A DNA stretch of 64,000 nucleotides. It comes from Lacticaseibacillus mingshuiensis (GTDB lineage Bacteria; Bacillota; Bacilli; Lactobacillales; Lactobacillaceae). Of this stretch, positions 16,116 to 64,000 are shown piece by piece (positions within the stretch are counted from its first letter, which is position 1; every line of letters starts with the position of its first letter). The position numbers were made by a program, and so were the translations under genes. The DNA lies in assembly GCF_016861785.1 (NCBI RefSeq), contig NZ_BOLS01000001.1, positions 1-64,000 of the forward strand, written 5' to 3'. The notes under the pieces were generated by a model. The model was not told the origin of the DNA. It did no database searches and worked only from the letters and a program-made list of their open reading frames with translations.

Positions 16116-16236
16116 GGGCGGGCTTCAGCCAGAAATGGCTGTGCCGCTTGCACCGAAAGTGAGCTTTAAGACCGCGACCTTTGCGGGCTTAAAGTCACTT
16201 GGGAGCGTTCCAGCCATTTCTGGTCGAAGCCCACCC
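16116..16236. repeat. 121-nt three-tier imperfect palindrome
   Basis: Outer arms GGGCGGGCTTC/GAAGCCCACCC, middle arms CCAGAAATGGCTG/CAGCCATTTCTGG and inner arms AAGTGAGCTTTAAG/CTTAAAGTCACTT are nested around a small CCGC/GCGG hairpin. It lies between the divergent amidase and hisS promoters and encodes no credible protein. Two other elements of the same design occur at 26788-26887 and 36368-36479. Confidence 0.8.
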
Positions 16237-16314: not shown

Positions 16315-16505
16315 AAATATTGCAGTGCCCAAGACGAAGTAGGATAGACCGCCATAAGCGACCCGGGAATTGGTGAAAGCCGGGATAGGTCGAAAAGACA
16401 CTTCTGAGGCAGATCCGCTCCGGTCGCCGCCGTTATGGCTAAGTGAAACAGTAAGGTGGTACCGTGCAACGCACCCTTCGACAAATCGAGGGGTGCGTTT
16501 TCTTT
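16315..16505 (+). promoter_or_regulatory. T-box riboswitch of the hisS-aspS operon
   Basis: The leader has the T-box sequence AAGGTGGTACCGTGC (16453-16467). It is followed by a terminator with a 14-bp stem (16468-16481 with 16486-16499), a CAAA loop and a TTTTCTTTT tail. Stem I is visible: GAAGT (16336-16340) pairs with ACTTC below the specifier loop, GACC with GGTC above it, and TTGGTGAAAGCC is the distal loop. The specifier position reads GAC (Asp, 16397-16399), overlapping CAC (His, 16399-16401). Uncharged tRNA would favour antitermination. Confidence 0.92.
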
Positions 16506-37251: not shown

Positions 37252-37485
37252 ATGAATGCCGTTTCGTGGTACAGCTTTCGCCACAACCTCAAAGCCTACA
37301 GGAAACAAGTTATTGAAGACGCCGAGCTGCTGATCGTGACAGCCAAGCACCCCGAAGACAATCTCGTGGTTATGAGCCAACAAGAATATGACTTGCTCAA
37401 AGAGACTTCGTACCTATTGTCGAGTCCGGAAAATGCAAAGGCCCTGCGAAAAAGCATCCGCCAGGCGACTGACGAGGCAAACTGA
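37252..37485 (+). CDS. Phd/YefM family antitoxin
   Basis: The 77-aa protein (NAVSWYSFRHNLKAYRKQV... PEDNLVVMSQQEYDLLKETSYLLSS) has the Phd/YefM fold pattern: an N-terminal DNA-binding half and a C-terminal toxin-binding helix. AAGGAGG lies about 10 nt before the ATG. The expected RelE/YoeB-type toxin gene does not follow. Confidence 0.82.
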   Translation: MNAVSWYSFRHNLKAYRKQVIEDAELLIVTAKHPEDNLVVMSQQEYDLLKETSYLLSSPENAKALRKSIRQATDEAN

Positions 37486-37996: not shown

Positions 37997-38024
37997 TTGA
38001 TTTTGCCCCGGTCGATGCTATAAT
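37997..38024 (+). promoter_or_regulatory. promoter of the glycine T-box leader
   Basis: TTGATT (37997-38002) and TATAAT (38019-38024) are 16 nt apart; TG at 38016-38017 makes the -10 extended. Confidence 0.7.
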
Positions 38025-38030
38025 AATAGT

Positions 38031-38207
38031 CAAAACAGATCGGCGATGAGAAAAAGAGAGATGACCGGCCTCGGCCAGCGAGCGAAGAAAAGGTGGGAGC
38101 TTCGTGCGGGCAGTCAACTCTGGCGTTTTCGAGCCTCGCAATGAAGAGCAGGTCCTCGGACCTGAAATAGGGTGGAACCGCGCGGCTTAGCCAAGTGACG
38201 CCGTTTT
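38031..38207 (+). promoter_or_regulatory. T-box leader, probable Gly specifier, without its gene
   Basis: The T-box sequence AGGGTGGAACCGCG (38169-38182) is canonical. In stem I, GAAAA (38050-38054) pairs with TTTTC (38126-38130), and TGAC (38062-38065) with GTCA (38113-38116). The specifier position, one base before the lower helix, is GGC (38122-38124) followed by G. After the T-box only a terminator 3' arm is clear (AGCCAAGTGACGCCGTTTT); its 5' arm looks lost. No synthetase gene follows. Confidence 0.8.
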
Positions 38208-38229
38208 CATCGCCTAAAGACCGTTAAAT

Positions 38230-38313
38230 CAGGCTATTATAAGCCTGTTTTCACACAATTATCACCTGTTTTCATGACTTTTTTCACGCCGTAGAGGACA
38301 TCGTAGAGGACAT
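38230..38313. other. prophage left-end repeats, candidate attL core and arm sites
   Basis: CAGGCT-ATTATA-AGCCTG (38230-38247) is an inverted repeat of the size of a tyrosine-recombinase core. CCTGTTTTCA follows at 38244 and 38265, with a related ACTTTTTTCA at 38277, then a 12-bp tandem repeat CGTAGAGGACAT at 38290-38313. This is how integrase core and arm sites look, but no integrase gene is visible nearby. Confidence 0.4.
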
Positions 38314-62907: not shown

Positions 62908-64000
62908 TTGAGGCTAAAAGCTAAACTAATCGCGGTCTGGGTCGCATTCCTTGCGGCCTTTTCGTTTGCCAGTGTGACTACAGTATCCGCCGCCAAGGGA
63001 GATACTGGTGTTGACTGGAGTGTATACCAAGGCGCAAATGGGAAGTTTGGCTATTCTGGCGATAAGTTTGTGATAGCACAGATTGGTGGCACCTACAATG
63101 GTGCTTTTATCAATCAGTCAACGTATAAGACACAGGTAGCCTCGGCGATAGCAGCAGGCAAGCGTGCGCACACATACATCTGGTATCAGGTTGGCGGTAG
63201 CACCTCGGTTGCCAAGACTGCGTTAGACCACTTTTTGCCAATGGTACAGACGCCAAAAGGGTCAATTGTGGCATTGGATTATGAAGCGGGTGCATCTAGC
63301 AGTAAGCAAGCTAACACTAATGCGATACTGTATGGACTACGACGGGTAAAGGCCGCGGGGTACACGCCAATGCTATACGGCTATAAGAGCTATCTAGTCT
63401 CGCACACTGATTTGGCAACAATTGCTAAAGACTACCAGTTATGGCTTGCGGAGTATCCTGACTACAATGTTACTACCGCGCCGAATTATGGCTACTTCCC
63501 AAGCTTTGATAACGTTGGTATCTTCCAGTTCACTTCTACCTATCGTGCTGGCGGCCTTGATGGCAACGTTGACTTAACCGGCATCACTGACAATGGCTAT
63601 GGCAAGGCCACAACCAATGACAAGGGGAAGGTCACAGTAAAGCCTAAGACGTCTACACCAGCGACTAAGGCTGGGGCAACCGCCAACAAGGCGACCAAGA
63701 CATCAATCACTAGGGGTACTAAGGTAAAGGTCAACCTAAGCGCTAGGGCATGGGCTAACGGCGTGGCAATACCTCGATGGGTCCGTGGGCGTACTTACAC
63801 CGTCCAACAGACTAGTGGAAACAGGGTATTACTCGCTGGCATACTGAGCTGGATTAGCAAGAGAGACGTTGTAGTAGCGGTTAAAGCTACTAGCACAGCT
63901 ACTGCTAATAGCCGCGGCACGTACACCGTCAGGTATGGTGACAGCTGGTGGAGCATTGCTTACAAGTATGGCATGAGCATGTACACCCTTGCTTCCCGCA
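62908..64000 (+). CDS. endolysin, GH25 muramidase with signal peptide, cut by window end
   Basis: The TTG at 62908 (AAGGGGG upstream) opens a frame still open at 64000, 364 codons. A signal peptide or signal-anchor (MRLKAKLIAVWVAFLAAF...SVSAA) precedes a GH25 domain (about residues 30-220; GVDWSVYQG, IVALDYEAG, LWLAEYPDY, IFQFTS). A Lys/Thr-rich linker, an SH3-like wall-binding part (about 255-325) and the start of a LysM motif (GTYTVRYGDSWWSIAYKYGM) follow. Sec export would make holin a trigger rather than a channel. Confidence 0.92.
   Translation, partial: MRLKAKLIAVWVAFLAAFSFASVTTVSAAKGDTGVDWSVYQGANGKFGYSGDKFVIAQIGGTYNGAFINQSTYKTQVASAIAAGKRAHTYIWYQVGGSTSVAKTALDHFLPMVQTPKGSIVALDYEAGASSSKQANTNAILYGLRRVKAAGYTPMLYGYKSYLVSHTDLATIAKDYQLWLAEYPDYNVTTAPNYGYFPSFDNVGIFQFTSTYRAGGLDGNVDLTGITDNGYGKATTNDKGKVTVKPKTSTPATKAGATANKATKTSITRGTKVKVNLSARAWANGVAIPRWVRGRTYTVQQTSGNRVLLAGILSWISKRDVVVAVKATSTATANSRGTYTVRYGDSWWSIAYKYGMSMYTLASR

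Follow-up and report, generated by a model that had tools for sequence, protein, structure and literature searches.

A glyQS T-box leader as the probable attachment site of a Lacticaseibacillus prophage whose end appears to rebuild the riboswitch

The stretch analysed here, called the window, comprises bases 1−64,000 of a 367-kb contig (C1; NZ_BOLS01000001.1, assembly GCF_016861785.1, hereafter G000) of Lacticaseibacillus mingshuiensis. On its forward strand, positions 38031−38185 form a T-box leader that serves as the left attachment site (attL) of a 28.6-kb prophage. Upstream of it, at 37997−38024, lies TTGATT-16-TATAAT (10/12 consensus, TG preceding the second hexamer), the predicted host promoter of the glyQS leader, now stranded at attL. 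The leader contains a GGC specifier (38122−38124), a stem III hairpin formed by the inverted repeat CAGGTCC and GGACCTG around a TC loop (38149−38164), also seen when the attR copy described below was folded, and the T-box motif TAGGGTGGAACCGCG (38168−38182). The specifier and the UGGA sequence fit the two tRNA-Gly(GCC) genes of the host, whose last base is U. Host sequence ends at 38185. The terminator, described in the original prediction as half-missing, was wholly absent, as was the antiterminator 3′ strand (the 60 nt that follow contain no CCCTA), and foreign DNA started at 38186, right behind the leader as had been proposed.

The attL leader scored only 20.9 bits (E of 0.026 in 901 nt) against the Rfam T-box model RF00230, below the gathering score of 93, which was likewise unreached by 20 of the 23 T-box matches in the source genome. 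Since this cut-off misses the attL leader and most of the G000 T-boxes, we built a covariance model for the genus, trained on 17 glyQS leaders from other members; of the 30 genus genomes used as its source, G000, the sister genome G027 and the prophage-linked G005 and G016 were deliberately excluded, and 9 yielded no leader. With this model, whose E-values are rough, the attL leader reached 94.6 bits (E of 2.9e-24 in 158 kb) over 38036−38189, bearing out the T-box leader of the original prediction. A second T-box (42.3 bits, also below gathering) was found at 16322−16481, directly before hisS (16535−17824). A repeat of about 100 bp is interspersed along the contig, at 16137−16237 in the window and at C1:80353, 80900 and 95965, these four contig copies being 92−94% identical to a copy in G027.

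The prophage body occupies the window from 38186, a boundary set by the repeat, to 64000 on the forward strand and runs on to C1:66609, with PHROG matches to primase, terminase, portal, head, tape measure and tail fibre proteins; an endolysin is also coded between the repeats. Past the right end of the window, C1:66610−66764 repeats the 155 bp of the leader in direct orientation with zero mismatches, and the prophage plus one repeat measures 28,579 bp. A tyrosine integrase gene (C1:65307−66473; Pfam Phage_integrase, with the Arm-DNA-bind_4 domain present in this and the related integrases described below) ends 136 bp before the right-hand repeat. The identical repeats flanking phage genes, together with the adjoining integrase, indicated that they are attL and attR of the prophage. 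With a terminal integrase, a direct repeat at both ends and an unoccupied site in a relative (see below), the element has the make-up of a site-specific tyrosine-integrase prophage. ARAGORN detected no tRNA in the part of the prophage up to position 64000; the only tRNA in the window is a tRNA-Ser (CGA) on the minus strand (5808−5894). Another integrase, 45% identical to that of the prophage and perhaps belonging to another prophage, is coded at G000:C5:24643−25791.

The attR copy, unlike that at attL, continues into the CCCTA antiterminator partner and a terminator, followed by glyQ (from C1:66833) and glyS, so that the phage does lie between the leader and glyQS, with attR and the two genes beyond 64 kb where the original prediction had sought them. 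The core ends 69 bp before glyQ, whose codons are those of the host and which is single in the assembly. This copy scored 131.1 bits with the genus model and 41.2 bits with RF00230 (again under 93), and its fold through the terminator (−75.6 kcal/mol, z of −3.10) was matched by 0/200 shuffled sequences; the corresponding values for the attL copy were z of −1.38 and 16/200. At both ends stem I, stem III and the T-box follow one another in the order of the genus glyQS leaders. In front of attR stands a promoter-like site in element DNA, TTGACG-16-TATACT (C1:66574−66601; 10/12). The promoter before glyQS is thus a predicted one belonging to phage DNA, and the phage promoter is probably used at attR. 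The original prediction that glyQS may be driven by phage or attR sequence therefore holds for the promoter but not for a loss of the T-box, because a full leader with the native terminator is present. A glyQS operon with a complete T-box of its own, which had been named as counter-evidence, exists to the letter, but as a phage/host chimera at attR.

The assignment of the two promoters rests on the sister genome G027, which carries the unoccupied site: promoter, leader, terminator and glyQS are contiguous with no prophage, and the matching pieces of the region show 93 to 97% identity. On the attL side, identity to G027 spans the upstream host DNA, including the attL promoter (97% over query positions 1−236), and ends 18 bases past the start of the T-box motif. 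On the attR side it starts at about the expected transcription start and extends into glyQS. Where the identity stops and starts at the two junctions marks the attL promoter as the host's and the attR promoter as element DNA. The gene recO (32466−33260; Pfam RecO_N and RecO_C) lies about 4.7 kb from the leader. Its expected neighbour glyQS had been thought absent because of phage insertion; the phage does intervene, but prophage-free G027 matches most of that 4.7 kb, so the gap is not due to the phage alone. Upstream of the leader, about 510 bp present in G027 are absent at window 37486−37542. The gene missing there codes for a Gp49-like (PF05973) toxin (L049:7055−7360) directly before an HTH antitoxin, and the window retains the HTH antitoxin gene (37543−37869) without the toxin gene. 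A PhdYefM-type antitoxin gene at 37252−37485 likewise has no evident toxin gene adjoining.

An orphan leader in prophage-free relatives would have spoken against phage insertion. In G027 the leader is joined to glyQS. G019, which served as one of the relatives free of the prophage, contains two leaders, one intact and, about 4 kb upstream of it, one decayed, the latter after recO and without this phage (L150, G019:C1:1540000−1547000); unlike attL, the decayed leader ends in a terminator-like stretch, and the other DNA of about 4 kb contains ABC transporter-like and transposase-like frames by eye. The decayed copy may stem from an earlier duplication or be left over from a different insertion.

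We searched 397 genomes of the family for relatives of the integrase and found three further elements at the same place, two prophages and one remnant, in two genera, each species being represented by one genome. The close relatives were 73% (G005) and 70% (G115, from another genus) identical, and G016, the remnant, has a broken gene with pieces of 62−80%. In each of the three, the integrase is followed by a T-box leader and glyQ, and the left junction lies 36.7 kb (G005), 7.2 kb (G016) or about 31 kb (G115) away. The G000, G005 and G115 prophages have many proteins in common in kept order (e.g., TerL, 78−81%). The other integrase matches listed were at most 45% identical, and 0/26 such loci had glyQ in their 1.5-kb flanks; an Rfam scan of 20 of these 26 returned three tRNAs and no T-box at the gathering score, which also misses the leader of the window. 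Among 395 genomes of the order, integrase matches with E up to 1e-105 came from the source genome and G006 only.

The T-box 15-mer was surveyed in the same 397 genomes. Of the 26 genus genomes among the matches listed, 22 had one copy, three (G000, G005 and G016) had two, and G013 had none; doubles also occurred, among the matches listed, in genera g18 and g19, in G279 and as mixed-strand pairs. A double motif in G055 was rejected as a second attachment because it is an overlap of contig ends. That case could suggest that our repeat, too, is one leader placed twice by assembly error or chance, an explanation we regard as having next to no probability, because both copies lie within one 367-kb contig with different flanks, the layout recurs in G005, G016 and G115, and the G005 copies differ.

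What the phage contributes to attR was decided by G005. Over the core, G000 attL, G000 attR and the G027 leader are alike, and G000 alone therefore cannot tell which copy is the phage's. Such likeness would be expected if the phage brought a short core only, the long identity in G000 having arisen later, when the host leader was duplicated or copied by gene conversion, with the attR sensor being the host's and nothing rebuilt. In G005, however, the sensors at attL and attR share only 81.2% identity. That at attL represents the host allele, being 99.3% identical to the sensor of G028, the nearest of the relatives compared (glyQ, 94.5%), whereas that at attR is 98.5% identical to the attR sensor and 97.7% to the attL sensor of G016, even though glyQ is only 83.2% identical between G005 and G016. 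Downstream of attR the host match resumes. Long repeats with phage promoters were found again in G016 (117 bp) and G115 (165 bp; attR promoter weaker by eye, 9/12). We therefore consider a short core with a host sensor at attR improbable. Judged from these alleles, the phage exchanges the promoter and sensor that belong to the glycyl-tRNA synthetase switch for its own, which in G005 amount to the allele of another species, and this argument is independent of G019. The two G005 junctions have only 22 bp, TGAAGTAGGGTGGAACCGCGCA, in common around the T-box motif, placing the crossover there.

The attR leaders of G005 and G016 and the prophage-free leaders of G019 and G028 share one T-box fold, in which 6 of 47 pairs show kept double changes and one pair is broken in one sequence; four sequences being few, these data support rather than prove selection on the phage-borne RNA. 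In each of the 21 other T-box loci of G000, even the best match to a 23-mer at the crossover differed at 5 or more positions, which would favour glyQS over other T-boxes as the target.

A phage-borne promoter and sensor could also serve the phage itself, since in the excised circle they would stand directly before the left arm and tie a phage function to glycine supply. The left arms argue against this use. A CCCTA partner within 60 nt was present in 7/7 attR or unoccupied (attB) leaders but in 0/4 attL leaders, and, counted from where the T-box motif starts, a terminator stem begins at 193−200 nt in 4/4 left arms (38368−38389 on the forward strand in the window, at 200 nt). With a terminator and no CCCTA partner, transcription seems to end ahead of the early genes, and no antiterminator for the left-arm terminator was seen by eye. 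We accordingly give service to the phage very little probability and favour service to the host operon, i.e., the phage presumably carries the sensor in order to keep glyQS expressed. The left arm also carries two copies of AGAGGACAT 12 bp apart (38293−38313, forward strand), putative arm-type integrase sites, with two more, equally spaced, at C1:66513−66533; in G005 and G115, similar repeats, which may have the same role, number three at 12-bp spacing in the right arm and two, 9−10 bp apart, in the left. The G000 left arm can also pair over 11 bp with the base of stem I, which was thought fortuitous because GTTTTCA is a repeated left-arm motif.

Searches of phage collections did not reveal the free phage. 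No free phage or attP was found in INPHARED or IMG/VR; the leader, whether its own or that of the relatives, had no match in INPHARED (distant mode), and an exact 26-mer had none in IMG/VR. The 15-mer of the T-box motif occurred in eight IMG/VR contigs. One of them, L105, of the G115 phage type, carries an integrase and the T-box at its end, and four (L103, L104, L109 and L110) were rejected as attachment sites, being coding-like DNA without a leader. In prophages of the G115 type (L105:1952−3025; L052), a gene of at least 358 aa on the opposite strand, with a signal-peptide-like start, adjoins the integrase and is possibly cargo. INPHARED returned 1965 records with integrase matches, every one below 60% identity, the best being Lacticaseibacillus rhamnosus phage JB1P3 (44.6%). 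In the viral-contig collection, 8 prophages had integrases of 72−73% identity, and the G005 attL region was unmatched in all 8, whose records are perhaps trimmed; a lone match of 24% in the genome-contig collection was unrelated.

Taken together, the repeats, the unoccupied site, the four elements at one site, the chimeric leader and the replaced sensor of G005, all read from DNA sequence, suggest that the leader at 38031−38185 is attL of a temperate phage whose integrase recombines in the T-box motif of the glyQS leader and whose end rebuilds the whole switch at attR, a reading to which we assign a probability of roughly 0.88. The tyrosine integrase would recombine inside the motif, and the crossover would sever the host promoter and tRNA-sensing domain from glyQS; because of this separation, the phage attachment site would carry a promoter and complete sensor of its own. 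The phage-carried part would comprise the promoter, stem I with the GGC specifier, stem III and the T-box up to CGCG. Integration would join this phage sensor to the antiterminator 3′ strand, terminator and glyQS of the host, yielding a whole glycine T-box riboswitch at attR, and the old host promoter and sensor would remain at attL, directed at the phage terminator about 200 nt downstream. The rebuilt attR switch probably responds to tRNA-Gly charging, and the prophage is probably still able to excise.

A literature search, mostly without subscription papers, returned no report of a T-box or riboswitch as an attachment site. The T-box motif, by our reading, can act as a recombination core, and in G005 two species would have exchanged regulatory RNA domains naturally. 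More speculatively, and with low probability, T-box leaders might, as tRNA genes do, form a class of phage attachment sites in which integrases take the conserved T-box motif as crossover core and through which phages shuttle sensors and promoters of essential aminoacyl-tRNA synthetase operons between species, and the attL sensor may be made as an orphan tRNA-Gly-binding RNA. If so, lysogeny would reset the response to amino-acid starvation, and the orphan attL RNA would measure a few hundred nt. The system offers a clean way to find out whether riboswitch sensors carried by a phage keep their function.

Mobile elements are known to spare their hosts by restoring tRNA genes or protein ends on insertion; in the present case, what is restored seems to be a riboswitch sensor and promoter controlling an essential operon. 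At tRNA genes, the phage usually supplies the 3′ part, and the glyQS leader would be the mirror image, with the phage supplying the 5′ part. Compared with the glycine T-box (RF00230) of glyQS operons, attR has stem I, GGC, stem III, T-box, antiterminator and terminator; unlike in the ordinary glycine T-box, its promoter and sensor are phage-derived, and the attL copy has neither antiterminator partner nor terminator. According to one report (PMC8409611), IMEVchUSA3-like elements at the dusA 5′ end and SXT at prfC are tyrosine-integrase elements that supply a new promoter, the gene staying expressed. Insertion on the 5′ side and an element-supplied promoter, in our case predicted from sequence, are common to both, but those elements replace the N-terminal coding end, whereas here the coding DNA is intact, the riboswitch sensor is rebuilt and the crossover falls in an RNA motif. 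In tRNA-dependent lysogeny (PMC10865867), complementation comes from a tRNA gene that the phage carries separately, and the core in common is about 10 bp. There, as at tRNA-gene sites, the phage attaches within an RNA-coding element on which the host depends and repairs the damage, which is also the likeness to our case. Our site is a T-box leader and not a tRNA gene, however, and instead of a complementing tRNA as in those phages, the leader would be rebuilt at attR from a phage-supplied 5′ part and promoter.
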